Of a stretch of 5,830 bases of DNA, positions 1 to 5,830 are shown in pieces. The notes beneath the pieces are model-generated. The model did no database searches, was not told where the DNA came from, and was given only the letters and a program-made list of their open reading frames with translations. Source of the stretch: Planctomycetaceae bacterium (GTDB lineage: Bacteria > Planctomycetota > MHYJ01 > SBBU01); the NCBI GenBank assembly GCA_005239585.1, contig SBBU01000045.1, forward strand, positions 1 through 5,830. Reading direction: 5' to 3'. How positions within the stretch are numbered: the stretch's first letter is position 1; the number at the start of each line of letters is the position of its first letter. Both the position numbers and the translations under genes were made by a program.

Positions 1-115
1 TCCTGTGCTCTCCTGCTTGCTCTGTGGCCTCCTTCAATGAGTGTATGTAAGTTGCATAATCACAATAAGTTACGGCACAAAAAAGTGTTGACAAGCGCGC
101 CTGACCCTAACATTT

Positions 116-436
116 TTACTTGACTTCTACCCCTGAACGGTTACAAATGTTTGCATCTACTTTATCTGTCTTTATCCTGGCCTCTGCGATTAGCTTTACC
201 TTATATGCATTTGCTACTTTTACTTCGACCCCCATTTCTTGCATTATGTCTATTAACCAAAAACATTTGTTTCCGGTTTCACATACTGCTCGTACTGGCT
301 CATCTAAACTTTTGATGAGACGTGCAAAATTTTCTTTACGATTAGGCAATTTACATTCTGTATGTAGATTGCCATCCTCGTCTTTAATCGCTATCTGGCT
401 CTTGCGCTTGGCAAGATCTATTCCCATATTTAACAT
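116..436 (-). pseudogene. IS110-family transposase, N-terminal fragment (truncated)
   Basis: This encodes the amino-terminal RuvC-like (DEDD) half of an IS110-family transposase/recombinase, the enzyme class that moves IS110 elements. Residues seen, counting from the ATG at 434-436: D7 in MGIDLAK, E53 in CETG, and D91 and D94 in KTDKVDA, which are the four acidic positions of the DEDD site. The ATG is chosen because GGAGG (444-448 on the plus strand) lies 7 bases upstream of it; an in-frame ATG further upstream has no such signal. Homology stops after KTDKVDA (codon at 152-154). An unrelated tail of about 11 residues follows and ends at 116. The family normally runs to about 300-400 residues and has a C-terminal Tnp_20 domain with a catalytic serine; both are missing here. 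The element is therefore almost certainly inactive. The family assignment is firm; the exact breakpoint is inferred from where the resemblance ends. Confidence 0.88.
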
Positions 437-443
437 GGCTACG

Positions 444-448
444 CCTCC
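444..448 (-). promoter_or_regulatory. Ribosome binding site of the IS110 fragment
   Basis: GGAGG on the minus strand sits 7 bases before the ATG at 434-436 and decides the transposase start in favour of the peptide beginning MLNMGIDLAK. Confidence 0.65.
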
Positions 449-507
449 ATAAAAAAGTTTTCTTCTTATCATATCAGGCTCAGCCCGTTACATATAATCA
501 CCACAAA

Positions 508-562
508 AAGCCCCGTCTGGAAGTACGGGTCGCCCTTTGGGCGAGCTTCTCCCCTCTGGGGC
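508..562. repeat. GC-rich palindromic repeat unit 1
   Basis: This is a nest of hairpins between the IS110 fragment and the sigma factor gene. CCCGT (512-516) pairs with ACGGG (525-529). TCGCCC (530-535) pairs with GGGCGA (539-544) around a TTT loop. CCCC (551-554) pairs with GGGG (558-561). Alternatively, GCCCC (510-514) can close the whole unit with GGGGC (558-562). The opening AAAGCCCC..CTGGAAG is shared with the unit at 597-627, so the two look like diverged members of one dispersed intergenic (REP-like) family. No poly-T tract follows on either strand, which argues against a simple intrinsic terminator. Its function is unknown. Confidence 0.6.
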
Positions 563-596
563 AAGGATGAAGTGGTGCAAAATAAGTTTTCCCAAG

Positions 597-627
597 AAAG
601 CCCCTCCTGGAAGGGAGGGGTGCGGGG
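597..627. repeat. GC-rich palindromic repeat unit 2
   Basis: A perfect 7-base stem, CCCCTCC (601-607) with GGAGGGG (614-620), closes a TGGAAG loop and is followed by TGCGGGG. It shares its AAAGCCCC..CTGGAAG start with unit 1 at 508-562. It lies about 50 bases upstream of the sigma factor gene, so a hairpin in the 5' leader of that transcript is possible. It is followed only by TTTA, too short for a strong intrinsic terminator. Confidence 0.6.
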
Positions 628-673
628 TTTACTATAACTTTTTCATGGGATACGGTATCTTATTAAATAGAGC

Positions 674-1270
674 ATGAGTAATTTAGATGACAAGGCCATG
701 GTAGGTAAATGCTGTTCTGGAGATCATGCAGCGTGGAATGAGCTGGCGAACCATTACTTTCCAGTGATACAGGGCACAGTCAGACGCGTATTTAGGTCTT
801 ATCAAGTTGACCCAGACACACCTGATTTCGACGATGTCTGTCAGGAAGTATTCGTCAGAATACTTCAACATGATGCCCGAGTCCTTAGAAGTTTCAGGTG
901 GCAGTCTAGTCTCAAGACATGGCTCTCTTTAGTAGCCTCTAGCTGTGCAGTGGATCATCTCAGAAAAAAACACAAAAGAGAGATACCTATCACAGACTAT
1001 ATAGACAAGATAAGCACAGAGATTGTTCCTTCTTCAGAAGAATTTGATCGATCAGAAATATCTGCCCTCAATCAGGCAAAGGAACGTCTTCTGCCACGTG
1101 ATAAACTACTTATAAAACTTGCATATGAGAGAAAGTGGTCTTATGAGCAGATTAGCAAGCTAATCGGTATTTCAGTAAACACAGTTGGACCTGCGATACA
1201 CCGTGCCATAACGAGACTGGAAAAGGCATTTTCAGAGATAAAAAAAAATAACATAGGCGCACGAAAATGA
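674..1270 (+). CDS. RNA polymerase sigma factor, ECF (sigma-70 family group 4)
   Basis: This 198-residue protein is a two-domain alternative sigma factor that would direct RNA polymerase to a small set of promoters. Region 2 spans about residues 20-100: DFDDVCQEVFVRIL (51-64) is the usual core-binding helix, and FRWQSSLKTWLSLVASSCAVDHLRKK (about 74-99) covers the -10 recognition part. A variable linker (about 101-130) precedes region 4 (about 132-186), where WSYEQISKLIGISVNTVG forms the helix-turn-helix for the -35 element. There is no region 1.1 or region 3, and the length is normal for an ECF factor. The start at 674 has only a weak purine-rich upstream stretch; the next in-frame ATG (698) has no better site. 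The last four bases overlap the start of the anti-sigma gene. I cannot assign an ECF subgroup or a target promoter. A run of nine A (1240-1248) lies near the 3' end. Confidence 0.95.
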   Translation: MSNLDDKAMVGKCCSGDHAAWNELANHYFPVIQGTVRRVFRSYQVDPDTPDFDDVCQEVFVRILQHDARVLRSFRWQSSLKTWLSLVASSCAVDHLRKKHKREIPITDYIDKISTEIVPSSEEFDRSEISALNQAKERLLPRDKLLIKLAYERKWSYEQISKLIGISVNTVGPAIHRAITRLEKAFSEIKKNNIGARK

Positions 1271-2190
1271 ATAATGAAACGTCTAAATATAGTGAGGATA
1301 AAGAAGTAATGAGACATCCAGAGAATGAGATCCTAGCGGCCTTTTGCGACCAAACTCTTGAACAAGGCAAGAGAGACAGGATCGAGGAACATCTTTCAAA
1401 CTGTTCAAGATGCCTTGATATCGTAGAGGCCGCGATGTTGCAAGTCGGGGTTGAATCATCAGGATCCATCAGCCCTGATTCCTCAAAAAAGATAATCGAG
1501 CTGGTTGCTTTACGCAAGCGCCGCGTCAAGATATTGCCCCTAGCACTATCGGCATCTGCTGCGGTAGTTATCGCAGTTGTAAGCCTAGTCATTGTGGCAA
1601 ATCTTTACCATCAACAAGGCACAAGAACTCCAGAAAAAGAGGTCAGGACAAGCAAACCGATAGAACTGGCACAGCTGACAGAATGGCACAAGGCCAGCTA
1701 CATTGCAAGCAGTGATATCCTTGTAAAACATACCGCCAGTGCAGAAAGCCTTAGCCGACCTGCACATGCTACTGAAAGTTCAAGACCTGAGAGTTCAAAA
1801 CTTATAGAGCACTTGAACGCAAAACCAATAGTAATACTCACGGCACAATCAAAGTTAGCCGAGATCGAAAAGACCCTTGGGAAAAGGCTTTTTGCACCTG
1901 AAAACATCCCTGCTGGATTTGGCCTTGTTGAGGTGCAGGAGAGGTTAAATAACCAGTTTCAGCTCTTTTTTGCAGGATTTCAAGGCAAACTAATCAAGAC
2001 CTTTTCTATCTTTCTAAAACACTCTGAAGAAAATGATACAAGTAAGATAGAAAAAGAGACGTTTCGCGACAATACAGGCTTGGAATACACAATAATTCAT
2101 TTCAGGGCCAATCAATTCTACTATGCCCTGATAAGCCCTATTCTGGGCGAATCTGAACTACGGAAGATAGCACGATCCATTCAAAAATAG
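1267..2190 (+). CDS. Membrane anti-sigma factor with ZAS zinc domain and extracytoplasmic C-terminal domain
   Basis: This 307-residue protein is predicted to hold the upstream sigma factor inactive at the inner face of the membrane until a signal arrives. Its cytoplasmic N-terminus carries H17, H42, C46 and C49, that is H-x24-H-x3-C-x2-C, the ligand spacing of the zinc anti-sigma (ZAS) domain of the RsrA/ChrR type. Residues 83-88 are basic, and about 89-113 form one hydrophobic transmembrane helix. A low-complexity Ser/Thr/Ala linker (about 120-180) leads to a compact C-terminal domain (about 188-307) outside the cytoplasm. That domain contains IPAGFGLVEVQ and alternating beta-like stretches and resembles no family I can name with confidence. 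The start overlaps the sigma stop as ATGA (1267-1270), which implies translational coupling. The ZAS site and membrane helix are seen directly; the sensor role of the C-terminal domain is inferred. Confidence 0.86.
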   Translation: MNNETSKYSEDKEVMRHPENEILAAFCDQTLEQGKRDRIEEHLSNCSRCLDIVEAAMLQVGVESSGSISPDSSKKIIELVALRKRRVKILPLALSASAAVVIAVVSLVIVANLYHQQGTRTPEKEVRTSKPIELAQLTEWHKASYIASSDILVKHTASAESLSRPAHATESSRPESSKLIEHLNAKPIVILTAQSKLAEIEKTLGKRLFAPENIPAGFGLVEVQERLNNQFQLFFAGFQGKLIKTFSIFLKHSEENDTSKIEKETFRDNTGLEYTIIHFRANQFYYALISPILGESELRKIARSIQK

Positions 2191-2298
2191 CCGAAACCGG
2201 GAAAAAATTCTCATCTGCACTGCACGGATCCTAGCCGGGCCACGTCTATATGATCAAGTTTATGAATTTACTATTGAAGCTTTTGGAGGAATGACACC
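2191..2298. other. Intergenic gap between the anti-sigma gene and the zinc-ribbon gene
   Basis: This 108-base spacer holds no gene. I found no intrinsic terminator and no convincing promoter: a TATGAT at 2249-2254 lacks a matching -35 at the usual distance. Its length allows either read-through from the sigma/anti-sigma genes or a separate promoter for the genes downstream. Confidence 0.4.
2285..2290 (+). promoter_or_regulatory. Strong ribosome binding site for the 421-residue protein
   Basis: GGAGGA ends 8 bases before the ATG at 2299 and fixes that start. It is the best Shine-Dalgarno sequence among the larger genes of the cluster, since the sigma, anti-sigma and radical SAM starts all have weak ones. 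Confidence 0.75.
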
Positions 2299-2418
2299 AT
2301 GAGTATTTTGAATAATTTAGAACCATGTCCCAAGTGTCAGCGCCACGTGTTCTTGCGCGATAACCGCTGCCCTTTCTGCGGTGTAGCGTTCAAACAATCA
2401 TCGGGAACTGGCACGTCG
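2299..2418 (+). repeat. Leader direct repeat, copy A
   Basis: This stretch is the partner of 4739-4858 in the same orientation. Over the 34 leader codons I count 81 of 102 identical bases and 27 of 34 identical residues. Weaker in-register similarity runs past the point where copy B has a stop codon. The two copies flank the rest of this gene and the radical SAM gene. Confidence 0.8.
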
Positions 2419-3564
2419 ATGCTTTCGACTGCCGCGGCTGCGGGCCTCTTGCTCACAAGCGGTCCCGTCGCACAGGCGAATGTCCTGAATGCTACTAGCA
2501 TTCAATCGATCACTATTTCAGCCAGCCTGCAAGAGCAGGTCCCTATGGAATTCCAGGATCTCTGGCTCAGGCTATTCAAACACCGCGATGATACGCTAAG
2601 CAGTGAAAAGCTCAAAGAGCTAATAAGCGATGTGGAAAAGCAGAGCAAGAGACTGGATGAGAAAAAAAACATTCCAGCCGGTCTGAGTTCATACTTGAAG
2701 GGCAAGATGAACCTTGTCTGTGAAGAAATAAAGGCAAAGACCGATGGGAAAAAGCCAAGCAAGGAAGAACAGATAAAGGCCTTCATTCAAGAGATGCGCT
2801 TAACTATAGAGCTGGGAGAATCACTGAAGAAGGTAAATGCCAAGTCAATCAAAGTTGAAATTCCAAGACAGGCAGTAAGCGAGACAAAGAGGATGTTTAG
2901 TATTTTAAAAGATTATCCAATCGATGATAGGCTGAGTGCTGGAGGACTAGAGCGCAAGGAGTATAAAGATTTAGTTATACTGCTCATGTCGGTGCTGCCT
3001 GGGATTGCCACCTTTGAGGTAAGTAAACCATCAATAGCTCAACCCGCGTACGGGATAAGGCGTGACCCAATTCTTCCGACAATTCCAACCAGCCCACGAG
3101 TCACAGACGTAAAGGGAGAACTATCCGTGAAACAGACAAACGCGGTAGAGCAGCAACTGAAACCGGATATGCAGCTATACCTCACAAGTGTTCTTGATAA
3201 CGCCAAAGATGAGAATGCAAAGATTACTTTCTCTAACAGCATGACCGTAGATGTAAAGAAGAAAGAGATCCTAACAGGCATGGAGCTGGCGCCTGAATAC
3301 AAGATGGATGCAAAACTGGAAGACGAGATAAAGAACCTAATAAAGGACCTTGGGCATGAAGACCCTGAAAAGCGCGACAAGGCAACCGCAGGACTCGGCA
3401 AGATCGGGCCCATCTGTAGGAAGTATGTTGAAGAAGCACTGGCCAAGACAACTGATCCCGAGGTCAAGGCGCGTGCAGAGGCGATCTTAAAAGAGATCAA
3501 GACAAAAGAGGGTGGAAACCCCATTGTTGATAATCTGATCCCAACGCCACAATATAAGAAATAA
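2299..3564 (+). CDS. Zinc-ribbon-leader protein with hydrophobic segment and C-terminal HEAT-like unit; function unknown
   Basis: This 421-residue protein has no function I can name. Its parts in order are as follows. A short zinc-ribbon-like leader carries C10-x2-C13 and C24-x2-C27 (CPKC...CPFCG, residues 9-28). A hydrophobic stretch follows (about 40-58), ending in PVAQA/N, which could be a signal peptide or membrane anchor unusually preceded by about 40 residues. Then comes a charged, lysine-rich, probably helical region (about 80-235), a Pro-rich linker (about 244-267, with PAYGIRRDPILP), a mixed region, and a HEAT-like unit (about 345-400: LGHEDPEKRDKATAGLGKIG then TTDPEVKARAEAIL). The leader recurs at 4739-4843, past the radical SAM gene. 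GC is about 55-65% for roughly the first 160 bases and about 42-45% afterwards, suggesting a fusion of modules of different origin. The radical SAM gene begins 6 bases after the stop, so the two are probably co-expressed. It may be the substrate of that enzyme; this is inference. Confidence 0.9.
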   Translation: MSILNNLEPCPKCQRHVFLRDNRCPFCGVAFKQSSGTGTSMLSTAAAAGLLLTSGPVAQANVLNATSIQSITISASLQEQVPMEFQDLWLRLFKHRDDTLSSEKLKELISDVEKQSKRLDEKKNIPAGLSSYLKGKMNLVCEEIKAKTDGKKPSKEEQIKAFIQEMRLTIELGESLKKVNAKSIKVEIPRQAVSETKRMFSILKDYPIDDRLSAGGLERKEYKDLVILLMSVLPGIATFEVSKPSIAQPAYGIRRDPILPTIPTSPRVTDVKGELSVKQTNAVEQQLKPDMQLYLTSVLDNAKDENAKITFSNSMTVDVKKKEILTGMELAPEYKMDAKLEDEIKNLIKDLGHEDPEKRDKATAGLGKIGPICRKYVEEALAKTTDPEVKARAEAILKEIKTKEGGNPIVDNLIPTPQYKK

Positions 3565-3570
3565 AAGATC

Positions 3571-4800
3571 ATGACTACACCTGTACCATACTATGCAGTC
3601 TGGGAGATAACGCTGGCATGCAATCTGGCATGCCGGCACTGCGGCAGTCGCGCTGGTAAAAAGCGTCCGGGAGAAATGACGACGGAAGAATCGCTTCGCG
3701 TTGTTGACCAGCTTGCCGACCTTGGTGTACAGGAAGTAACACTTATCGGTGGAGAAGCATACCTTAGGCCAGACTGGGACATTATCCTGAAAGCACTCTC
3801 AGACAAGGGTATCCGTACCGGCATCACCACAGGTGGACGTGGGCTGACGCGTGAACGGGCACAGCGTGCAAAAAACGCCGGTGTAGGTAGCATGAGCGTT
3901 TCGGTGGACGGACTGGAACGCGCACACGACTGGCTGCGCGGATGGCCGGGTAGTTTCCGGGCCGCAATGGAGGCTCTTGACAATATACGTGAAGAAGGGA
4001 TCTGGACATCGGCAAACACACAAGTAAATCGCGTGAACTTTGCCGATCTCGACGACTTGTTGACGGTTCTGACTGAAAAGGGTATCAAATCATGGCAGGT
4101 ACAAATCACATCGGCGCTGGGACGTGCCGCCGACCATGAAATGATTCTCTTTCAGCCATACGACGTCATCGAGTTCACAGAGAAATTTGCCCAACTTAAA
4201 ATCCGCTGCAACGAAACGGGCATCGACCTCGCGCCCGGCAACAACGTCGGATACTTTGGCCCGTATGAAACACTCATACGCAGCCGCGGTCAACAGCAAT
4301 TACACTGGACAGAATGCTCAGCTGGATGCAAAACGATAGGAATCGAGGCAGACGGCACATTCAAGGGCTGTCCATCGCTTCAGACAGATGCCTACACCGC
4401 AGGATCGCTCAAAGAGCAATCCGCACAAGAGATATGGAATAACAGCCAAACGCTCAAGGATCACAGGGCATGGTCCAAAGATAATCTCTGGGGATTCTGC
4501 AATGGCTGTTACTATGCCGAGACTTGCAAGGGCGGATGCACTGACACAGCGCACGCGTTAATGGGCAGGTCGGGCAACCAGCCCTACTGCCATCACCGCG
4601 CATTGGAACTCAAAAAACAAGGGCTTCGCGAGACTCTCACTAAAATCAAAGATGCACCCGGACGACCATTCGACAGCGGATTATTTGAACTTAAAACAGA
4701 GCCGGATAGACCTGAAACTAGTTTGGCGGAGAGACAAGATGAGTTTTTTACACACTTTAGTACCATGTCCAAAATGTCAGCGCCACGTGTTTCTGCGTGA
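3571..4800 (+). CDS. Radical SAM/SPASM domain protein, peptide-maturase-like
   Basis: This 409-residue enzyme should bind a [4Fe-4S] cluster through C17-x3-C21-x2-C24 (CNLACRHC) and cleave S-adenosylmethionine to make a 5'-deoxyadenosyl radical; GGEAYL (60-65) is the SAM-contacting GGE motif. The TIM-barrel core covers about 5-200. The C-terminal SPASM region supplies ligands for auxiliary clusters: C249, C253, C267, then C310-x2-C313-x5-C319-x3-C323 and C340. SPASM enzymes of this layout mostly modify ribosomal peptides or proteins, as in PqqE, AlbA and anSME, or act in heme pathways. The opening PYYAVWEITLACNLACRHCGSRAG resembles enzymes that I recall being annotated as peptide-associated SPASM maturases, but I cannot confirm the subfamily. 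The start follows the upstream stop by 6 bases with no clear ribosome site, suggesting coupling. The last 20 residues or so (390-409) overlap the short zinc-ribbon ORF in another frame, so they may be a recent extension. GC reaches 60-68% in places, above its neighbours. Confidence 0.93.
   Translation: MTTPVPYYAVWEITLACNLACRHCGSRAGKKRPGEMTTEESLRVVDQLADLGVQEVTLIGGEAYLRPDWDIILKALSDKGIRTGITTGGRGLTRERAQRAKNAGVGSMSVSVDGLERAHDWLRGWPGSFRAAMEALDNIREEGIWTSANTQVNRVNFADLDDLLTVLTEKGIKSWQVQITSALGRAADHEMILFQPYDVIEFTEKFAQLKIRCNETGIDLAPGNNVGYFGPYETLIRSRGQQQLHWTECSAGCKTIGIEADGTFKGCPSLQTDAYTAGSLKEQSAQEIWNNSQTLKDHRAWSKDNLWGFCNGCYYAETCKGGCTDTAHALMGRSGNQPYCHHRALELKKQGLRETLTKIKDAPGRPFDSGLFELKTEPDRPETSLAERQDEFFTHFSTMSKMSAPRVSA
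4728..4731 (+). promoter_or_regulatory. Ribosome binding site of the short zinc-ribbon ORF
   Basis: GGAG lies 7 bases before the ATG at 4739, inside the 3' end of the radical SAM gene. It supports initiation at 4739, giving MSFLHTLVPCPKC, rather than at an earlier in-frame ATG (4652) that would add an unrelated 29-residue out-of-frame stretch. Confidence 0.6.
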
Positions 4801-4843
4801 CAACTGCTGCCCCTTCTGTGGCGGCGCGTTCAAAAACTCGTAG
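4739..4843 (+). CDS. Short zinc-ribbon peptide, 34 residues (possible modified peptide or truncated paralogue)
   Basis: This small ORF encodes a near-copy of the leader of the 421-residue protein. CPKCQRHVFLRDN is unchanged, and C10, C13, C24 and C27 are kept. The seven differences include R23C, which gives DNCCPFCGG with an extra cysteine. It overlaps the radical SAM gene by 62 bases in a different frame and has its own ribosome site (4728-4731). Between codons 9 and 28 the two copies differ by nine synonymous codons and one nonsynonymous codon, the pattern left by selection on the protein. Against a stand-alone peptide, similarity to copy A continues in frame beyond the TAG (4841-4843), which aligns with a TCG serine codon there. 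It may therefore be the stump of a longer protein that lost its body. No hydrophobic segment or modifiable core remains in the 34 residues apart from the cysteines and the short tail GGAFKNS. Confidence 0.62.
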   Translation: MSFLHTLVPCPKCQRHVFLRDNCCPFCGGAFKNS

Positions 4844-4858
4844 GGAATAGGAAAATTG
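4739..4858 (+). repeat. Leader direct repeat, copy B
   Basis: This is the second copy of the leader sequence found at 2299-2418. In-frame resemblance extends about 15 bases past the TAG stop: GGA ATA GGA aligns with GGA ACT GGC. Direct orientation around the radical SAM gene would allow deletion or amplification by recombination, although 79% identity over 102 bases makes this inefficient. Confidence 0.78.
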
Positions 4859-4869
4859 ACTCCGCCGTG

Positions 4870-5830
4870 TTAAAAACGTTCTGACTTGCCTACTCCTCTC
4901 GGATCAGAAAAAGGCACGGGGCTTCCATCCTCGCCAATTATAATCGTTTGCACATCTCCAATATCGCTTCTTGGGACAAGCTGGTATCCAAAATCGGTCA
5001 GTTTTTTCTGAACCTTGTCGTTGAATGAATAGTTTTTTTCGAATTTTATCTGATCTGCAGGATAAAGCTGATGATGGAATCTGCCTGCCCTTAATGCCTT
5101 GTCAATATCCATCTTGAAATCAAGCACGTTGGCAATAATCTGAAAGTTCGTCGTGATAATAGTGGGCCCGCCGGGCGTGCCAACGATTAGATAAAGTCTG
5201 TCTTTTTTAAAGACAAGAGTTGGAGACATTGATGAGAGCATCCTCTTGCCCGGGGCTATTGCGTTTGCCTCTCCCCCAACAAGCCCATAAAGATTGGGAT
5301 GGCCCGGTTTTGCGCTGAAATCATCCATTTCGTTGTTAAGAAGAAACCCAGCACCTTTTACCACCACTCCGCAACCAAAGCTATCGTTTAATGTATATGT
5401 GTTGGAAACCGCATTGCCATATCTATCTACAATAGAAAAGTGTGTTGTGTTCTCCTTTTCAAAGACTCCATGCCTCACATCTGCAGTTGGAGTCTTGCTT
5501 TCAAGCGAAATCGACAAAGACCTGCTCTTGCAGTATTCTTTTGAAATAAGTCTATCAATTGGGATTTTTACATAGTCAGCATCTCCCATCCAGTAAGCCC
5601 TGTCTGCAAAGACTCGCTTCTCAATTTCCGCAACAAGATGAACGTACTTAAATGAGTTGTGCGACACGTTAGCAAATCTGTCCTGTAATATCTCCTTCAT
5701 GGTGAGCATCTGGATAAGTGCAACCCCGCCAGATGAAGGAGGTGGCGCTGAGACAATAGTGCAATCTCTGTACTTGCCGACAACAGGCTCTCTCATCTTG
5801 GAGCGATAGTTTGCAAGGTCATTCATTGAA
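4870..5830 (-). CDS. ggt: Gamma-glutamyltranspeptidase (glutathione hydrolase), C-terminal part; 5' end outside window
   Basis: This enzyme cleaves gamma-glutamyl bonds of glutathione and related compounds, usually in the periplasm, and self-cleaves into a large and a small subunit. The reading frame is open to the window edge, so the N-terminal signal and most of the large subunit are missing; DLANYRSKMREPVVGKYRD near the edge is the normal large-subunit sequence, so the ATG at 5826 is internal and not the start. ENTTHFSIVD contains the self-processing nucleophile threonine (codon 5446-5448), which begins the small subunit. Other family residues are present: NNEMDDFSAKPG, YGLVGGEANAIAPGKR, LSSMSPTLVF and the GTPGG oxyanion loop (GSPGG in E. 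coli). The C-terminus ends normally with SDPRGVGKS and a TAA at 4870-4872. It converges on the radical SAM cluster with a gap of only 26 bases and no visible terminator. It has no evident functional link to that cluster, and its GC (about 42%) matches the flanking genome. Confidence 0.97.
   Translation of the reverse strand, partial: SMNDLANYRSKMREPVVGKYRDCTIVSAPPPSSGGVALIQMLTMKEILQDRFANVSHNSFKYVHLVAEIEKRVFADRAYWMGDADYVKIPIDRLISKEYCKSRSLSISLESKTPTADVRHGVFEKENTTHFSIVDRYGNAVSNTYTLNDSFGCGVVVKGAGFLLNNEMDDFSAKPGHPNLYGLVGGEANAIAPGKRMLSSMSPTLVFKKDRLYLIVGTPGGPTIITTNFQIIANVLDFKMDIDKALRAGRFHHQLYPADQIKFEKNYSFNDKVQKKLTDFGYQLVPRSDIGDVQTIIIGEDGSPVPFSDPRGVGKSERF

Follow-up and report, generated by a model that had tools for sequence, protein, structure and literature searches.

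Among described spliceases, the closest to the locus analyzed here is PlpXY from Pleurocapsa sp. PCC 7319, for which the splice tags PIRPLYGLPI and AVAAGYGVVFPG were reported; the same report gives 27 other systems as characterised and 939 as predicted (PMC10533398), so that a wider splicease family is already known. The present locus lies in a stretch of 5,830 nucleotides (nt; hereafter the window) from a Planctomycetaceae bacterium (GCA_005239585.1, contig SBBU01000045.1, positions 1 to 5,830), and comprises genes for a protein of 421 amino acids (aa) and for a radical SAM/SPASM enzyme, followed by a 34-aa open reading frame (ORF). Based on sequence comparisons, this set of genes is likely to be a splicease-type protein-modification operon, in which the substrate would carry a zinc-ribbon leader instead of a Nif11 or nitrile-hydratase-type one. 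A preliminary description of the window knew of no well-described system of this kind, a statement that went too far, given that the enzyme clusters with those of PlpX type. The zinc-ribbon leader itself was not met in the literature searched, which was covered at the level of listings and the opening parts of abstracts, and its status as unpublished is not claimed.

The enzyme, the leader and their association

An alignment of 31 sequences, the window enzyme being one of them, showed no variation at the enzyme's three radical SAM cysteines or at its seven SPASM cysteines, and the two motifs pointed out in the preliminary description (C17-x3-C21-x2-C24 and C310-x2-C313-x5-C319-x3-C323) were present among them; both domains scored above their Pfam cut-offs (Radical_SAM 95.2 bits, SPASM 35.9 bits). 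In a tree of 82 rows, the window enzyme fell in a clade of 17 rows together with P0003 to P0018, inside a group of 69 rows that also took in 12 cyanobacterial enzymes and was split from 13 sister enzymes at 100/100, although the branching order within the 69-row group was partly unsettled and PlpX itself was absent from the tree. The cyanobacterial enzymes, taken from 12 of 23 such genomes, were all above the cut-off of TIGR04103 (nif11-class maturase 3), a model that we take to be PlpX-type and to correspond to IPR026482, the radical SAM subclass of PlpXY. The sister set consisted of 13 of the 14 listed matches below 400 bits from the same phylum, one partial match being omitted. Judged by its place in the tree, the enzyme is akin to the PlpX-type group, and a radical SAM/SPASM enzyme of that grouping, one of the features by which a splicease may be recognized, was thus found. 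Several Myxococcota splicease-like genes carry one in-frame stop (e.g., G486:C43, G446:C191 and G276:C18), which reflects either decay or assembly error.

The preliminary description had also stated that the 421-aa protein and the 34-aa ORF open with the same Cys4 leader. This was confirmed by a gapless alignment of 126 nt between the two copies, extending from the ribosome-binding region upstream of the ATG to just past the stop of the short ORF. Over the 34 codons, 13 synonymous and 8 nonsynonymous changes were counted (dS, synonymous divergence, 1.47; dN, nonsynonymous divergence, 0.10), and codons 9 to 32 gave a dS of 1.65 and a dN of 0.04; with dN far below dS, this suggests purifying selection on the ribbon. 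A chance origin of the repeat was rejected on the same alignment and divergence values. Positions C10, C13, R15, H16, C24, F26 and C27 were invariant in 30 aligned leaders, which were chosen from profile matches. No match to Nif11 or NHLP was found in the window up to an E value of 1 with Pfam and NCBIfam, the leader being the ribbon.

The association between leader and enzyme was evaluated in 80 loci fetched by the enzyme alone and in a separate sample of Myxococcota genomes, the two having at least one genome in common (G001, which holds locus L002). A leader profile detected the ribbon in 59 of the 80 enzyme loci, ribbons fused to the enzyme included, and in none of the 13 sister-enzyme loci; this is not an independent test, since 13 of the 15 peptides used to seed the profile were drawn from those very loci. 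Among 282 Myxococcota genomes, 50 contained the leader (E up to 1e-4) and 105 were matched by the enzyme search (E up to 1e-90), 18 of them by the sister enzyme only, leaving 87 with the enzyme proper. The latter was present in 49 of the 50 leader genomes (15.4 expected), none of which had the sister only, and no ribbon was found in the 18 sister-only genomes. A co-occurrence beyond chance, put forward for testing in the preliminary description, was observed, yet the associated figure of 1e-29 is not a true probability, as the genomes are related and not independent. That description had also held that a leader found widely away from such enzyme genes would speak against the link. This was seen in part: among the 150 leader matches listed, 67 had a listed enzyme gene no more than 5 kb away and the other 83 had none at that distance, but the genomes of these 83 nearly always had the enzyme elsewhere. 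The leader repeat is tied to the enzyme, and the leader is spread well beyond the window. The Myxococcota genome G481 had 26 ribbon-leader matches over many contigs, with three enzyme matches among those listed.

Tyr-Gly sites in the leader proteins

A Tyr-Gly (YG) rule holds among the leader proteins. Across 86 of them, 206 of the 228 tyrosines were followed by glycine (mean 34.8 and maximum 50 in 500 shuffles), and at least one YG was present in 82, against 29 by chance. These proteins were selected by ribbon and length, not by YG; the count started from 87 of 94 extracted ORFs retained by a length and cysteine filter, minus-strand matches having been excluded earlier, and a few of these ORFs overlap. 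The commonest surroundings were Pro or Ala at position -2, followed by Y-G-[AGLI]-P-P, mostly in the form PxYG(A/G/L)PP, and glycine stood directly after YG at 47 of the 206 sites. A lipobox-like cysteine followed the ribbon in 79 of 87 leader proteins (shuffle mean 28.6, maximum 41), and was itself followed by low-complexity YG sequence. In a set of 20 leader proteins taken from the listing for their distance from the enzyme gene, all 20 had YG (shuffle mean 5.3, maximum 11), as would be expected of substrates served in trans. Cores found in relatives, such as VAPLYGLPA and AMYGVVFRD, resemble the published PlpXY tags, while same-strand YGx[PAV] was found in 2 of the 13 sister loci. The association with the enzyme (59 of 80 loci against 0 of 13, and 49 of 50 genomes) and this use of YG support the earlier proposal that the leader may act as a recognition module and the ribbon proteins as its substrates.

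Some candidate substrates have YA or YS instead (L011:9127, L036:5922 and L076:497-763, with AIYAAAI, IPIYSAAFP and QLLYAAAIHES), perhaps as an altered core motif. Proteins with 5 to 10 YG repeats (QPVYGAPMP, QPMYGVVIDPRPRPEPP, QPKYGLPMPI; Table 1) adjoin splicease-like enzymes.

As for the 421-aa protein, the ribbon, hydrophobic segment and large body given in the preliminary description were all recovered, while its Tyr-Gly site at residues 251-252 had gone unnoticed. Only one of its eight tyrosines, Y251, is followed by glycine. A structure model built from three sequences, of low overall confidence (mean 56), placed this residue in a disordered linker (residues 240-281) with a predicted local distance difference test below 50, between a helical domain (83-238) and the C-terminal HEAT-like helices; as modelled, an exposed site in such a linker would be what a splicing enzyme needs. 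The one real homologue, P0002, is a fragment that does not reach into the leader and is 56% identical to the window protein; it keeps AYG in a linker of lower conservation (19 of 40 identities) than its two flanking parts (86 of 154 and 86 of 132). A substrate with an xYG site, another feature of spliceases, was hence found in A250-Y251-G252, weak when taken alone and strong in the family, and comparison with the related loci suggests that residues 251-252 are the modified position.

According to the mechanism proposed here, the 421-aa protein would be made with its N-terminal Cys4 ribbon, which would bring it to the adjoining radical SAM/SPASM enzyme. The enzyme would then excise tyramine (C8H9NO) at A250-Y251-G252 and rejoin the chain, and export through the hydrophobic segment would remove the ribbon, in a manner like the lipoprotein processing of most relatives. 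More speculatively, the exported protein might expose an electrophilic ketoamide in the region that joins the helical domain to the HEAT-like one, with covalent capture or protease inhibition as possible functions.

Counter-evidence and alternative readings

Several observations weigh against a splicease-type operon with a ribbon-guided substrate. With regard to the substrate, the single YG of the 421-aa protein is unsurprising (YG arose in 696 of 2000 shuffles, and [PA]xYG in 76 of 2000), position +3 is Arg where Pro is usual, and the combination of ribbon and this body was seen once, because the sole homologue is a fragment that does not include the leader region. Same-strand YGx[PAV] was missing within 1.5 kb in 17 of the 80 enzyme loci, some of which are short contigs, and the motif appeared by chance on the opposite strand in 21 of the 80 enzyme loci, 1 of 12 cyanobacterial loci and 7 of 13 sister loci. 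Four of the 86 leader proteins had no YG: L045, cut by a contig end, L032, a ribbon-helix protein, and L011 and L036, with YA or YS. No YG peptide was printed for 3 of the 12 cyanobacterial TIGR04103 loci. With regard to the enzyme, TIGR04103 was the best NCBIfam model at 458.5 bits, below its cut-off of 725, and PlpX's own sequence was not in the comparison; a PlpY-like profile that matches all 12 cyanobacterial loci found no such protein in the window. The second-best and third-best models were TIGR03913 (431.8 bits, cut-off 591.75) and TIGR04133 (189.6 bits, cut-off 425). The name "splicease-like" was adopted because neither the TIGR04103 nor the TIGR03913 cut-off was reached and PlpY was not found. 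As for the leader, one of the 50 leader genomes (G450) showed neither the enzyme nor the sister, and 3 of 243 genomes of a cyanobacterial order gave weak leader matches of at most 27.6 bits. Moreover, PlpXY is reported to work without a precursor leader (PMC10533398), and a role for the leader is hence not to be assumed.

The preliminary description placed the 34-aa ORF beside the enzyme and proposed that one or both leader proteins were substrates. The ORF is indeed present, but it starts inside the enzyme gene, with which it shares the final 62 nt in a different frame, and it is more likely a truncated substrate gene, whereas the 421-aa protein is a likely substrate. Its TAG stop stands opposite a TCG in the other leader copy, one base from a sense codon. 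In the +1 frame, CPxCxRH could be read from 14 of the 31 enzyme tails, compared with 3 of 10,995 positions in the enzyme bodies, and the tail of P0014 can be read as CPxCxR and CPxC at the correct 11-residue spacing; given this pattern, a ribbon gene overlapping the enzyme end is probably old in the clade. In 8 of the 80 loci (L011, L021, L030, L032, L036, L052, L058 and L069), the enzyme and ribbon ORFs overlapped by 4 to 29 nt. The other ribbon ORFs below 80 aa either were fused to an enzyme, were of the ribbon-helix form, were cut by a contig end, or were weak matches of about 12 bits due to chance. In view of the old overlap, the TAG/TCG difference and the nature of the other short ribbon ORFs, the likeliest reading is a truncated second substrate: the short ORF probably represents what remains of a substrate gene downstream of the enzyme.

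That the 34-aa ORF is instead a working stand-alone ribbon, serving as an adaptor of the enzyme in trans like PlpY or the separate ribbon-helix proteins, is considered unlikely. The ORF directly follows the enzyme gene, as do the ribbon-helix ORFs of L031, L032 and L040, PlpY-like ORFs hold the same place in 12 of 12 cyanobacterial loci, and the low dN of its ribbon would agree with a function. However, it does not have the helix-like tail found after the ribbon in ribbon-helix proteins, its stop is one base from the sense codon of the other copy, and in Myxococcota, presumably also in the clade of the window, a ribbon ORF that comes immediately after the enzyme gene usually encodes a complete YG protein.

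Quite unlikely, too, is that the ribbon protein is a substrate on which the enzyme carries out a different radical reaction in or close to YG (for instance tyrosine crosslinking, oxidation or epimerisation). SPASM enzymes are chemically diverse, we know of no characterised member of the 17-row clade, and the enzyme scores below both closest NCBIfam cut-offs; nevertheless, it stands in the same well-supported group as the cyanobacterial PlpX-type enzymes, the published splice tags agree with the motif and its surroundings (PxYG[AGLI]P), and the frequent glycine after YG argues against a side-chain bond there. A three-residue cyclophane at Y-x-x, a chemistry considered from general knowledge, was rejected as the leading explanation because the residue that would form the bond is often glycine. 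Lastly, it is very improbable that the exported protein is an ordinary one with the ribbon as a zinc or redox domain and that the enzyme serves some other substrate or a cofactor pathway (heme, pyrroloquinoline quinone), for while Cys4 ribbons are common, the 421-aa protein has folded parts and a single YG, insignificant alone, and heme and NirJ models also match the enzyme, the co-occurrence of ribbon and enzyme and the YG enrichment stand against it, and heme and cofactor synthesis was rejected as the role of the enzyme, those models lying far below TIGR04103 and their own cut-offs (AhbD 151.3 bits, cut-off 500; AhbC 115.7, 650; NirJ 120.1, 515.45; PqqE 93.5, 381.35).

Immediately upstream of the putative splicease-type operon, the ECF sigma and zf-HC2 anti-sigma genes overlap by 4 nt, and the pair may control the operon; a weak relative of the sigma factor was found in just two loci (L052 and L058). 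The IS110 piece is likely a remnant at the operon edge.

Table 1. Coordinates of features in the window and, where a locus is named, in related loci
Feature	Position	Strand	Basis
IS110-type transposase, N-terminal part, cut short	116-472	minus	
ECF sigma factor	674-1270	+	ORF and profile matches
zf-HC2 anti-sigma factor	1267-2190	+	ORF and profile matches
421-aa ribbon-leader protein, likely substrate	2299-3564	+	ORF, leader family
Zinc-ribbon leader CPKCQRHVFLRDNRCPFCG, Cys 10, 13, 24, 27	2299-2400	+	Aligned leaders
Hydrophobic signal-like segment, residues 41-59 (...GPVAQA), without lipobox Cys	2419-2475	+	By position, no signal predictor
A250-Y251-G252, proposed tyramine-excision site, disordered Pro-rich linker	3046-3054	+	
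C-terminal HEAT-like helices, residues 338-403	3310-3507	+	Model
Radical SAM/SPASM enzyme, splicease-like, 409 aa	3571-4800	+	Pfam, NCBIfam, tree
CxxxCxxC motif (C17, C21, C24), radical SAM cluster	3619-3642	+	Invariant in alignment
SPASM domain, seven Cys (C249, C267, C310, C313, C319, C323, C340)	4315-4590	+	Alignment, Pfam SPASM
Second ribbon ORF, 34 aa	4739-4843	+	Paralogous to 2299-2400
Overlap of enzyme 3' end and second ribbon ORF	4739-4800	+	62 nt, different frame
Gamma-glutamyltranspeptidase gene end, cut	4870-5826	minus	
YG-repeat protein, L176	895-1440		
YG-repeat protein, L177	541-1467		
YG-repeat protein, L178	2680-3594	minus	
YG-repeat protein, L077	1926-2561		
LLPRxxW-type YG lipoprotein, L168	2680-3168	minus	
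LLPRxxW-type YG lipoprotein, L170	2679-3662	minus	
LLPRxxW-type YG lipoprotein, L172	893-1489		

Possible guide modules and comparison with known systems

The ribbon was not always carried by the candidate substrate. In L006, L013, L034, L039 and L076 a ribbon and helix were fused to the enzyme C-terminus, and TIGR03913 was above its cut-off in all of these except L034, which at 577 was just below 591.75. Four of the five enzyme-fused loci had a small upstream YG peptide without a ribbon (e.g., ALPPYGVPIRA in L013), and the fifth, L076, a peptide with YA that looked similar by eye. Elsewhere (L031, L032 and L040) the ribbon occurred as a free small protein with a helix-like tail. A ribbon on both enzyme and substrate was seen at none of 81 loci, with L031 (free ribbon-helix) and L051 (contig-cut leader) reassigned by eye.

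Among the cyanobacterial TIGR04103 loci, all 12 had a small protein with LLPRSAW...AKKALDRIE, read as PlpY although PlpY's own sequence was not compared; same-strand YGx[PAV] was found in 12 of 12, some instances looking like chance frames, and 9 of 12 showed a YG peptide; all nine peptides were tested for Nif11, which scored above cut-off in eight, while the ninth is cut by the locus end. In a lineage near the cyanobacterial clade, YG lipoproteins encoded beside splicease-like enzymes had no zinc ribbon and began with a motif resembling PlpY (LLPRxxW in L170 and in L168, the latter being the same locus as L071, and RLMPRAAW in L172), as if PlpY were a detached leader. Taken together, the placement of ribbon and LLPRxxW suggests an exchangeable guide module. 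With somewhat more doubt than confidence, it may be proposed that the guide module of spliceases has moved between partners, as a ribbon on the exported substrate (the window and most of the Myxococcota loci seen), an enzyme-fused ribbon next to YG peptides that lack one, a free ribbon-helix protein, or a PlpY helix that is free or, in one lineage, at the substrate N-terminus, and that in ribbon bacteria a small number of enzymes would act on the products of many dispersed genes (as many as 26 matches in one genome) to yield a whole set of surface lipoproteins with ketoamides.

If the splicease-type reading is true, radical backbone splicing would extend beyond small peptides to a large exported protein and to a numerous lipoprotein family of Myxococcota. 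The ribbon would then be a simple search handle for substrates, including those distant from the enzyme gene, and possibly a transferable tag by which a protein of choice could be given a reactive ketoamide, and the existence of substrate-borne, enzyme-borne and free guide modules would make the question of splicease targeting directly testable.

Three described systems can be compared with the window. TIGR04133 (rSAM_w_lipo) is the third-best model and its name implies a radical SAM enzyme paired with a lipoprotein, yet the window enzyme is far below its cut-off. TIGR03913, the "GDL motif peptide-associated" maturase, is the second-best model and has members with a Cys4 ribbon in the same 69-row group (L006, L013, L039 and L076), but there the enzyme itself carries the ribbon, fused at its C-terminus, whereas in the window it is on the putative substrate. 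The closest likeness is to PlpXY: the SPASM radical SAM enzyme of the window stands in the same tree group as the PlpX-type enzymes, and the adjoining gene encodes a likely substrate that has an xYG site within Pro-rich sequence (proteins of relatives have several such sites each). It differs from PlpXY in that the enzyme is below the TIGR04103 cut-off and no PlpY-like protein was found in the window, and from the PlpA spliceotides in the leader of the likely substrate, a zinc ribbon rather than a Nif11 or nitrile-hydratase type. Finally, while PlpA-type precursors are short, the likely substrate of the window is a multidomain protein of 421 aa that is probably exported.

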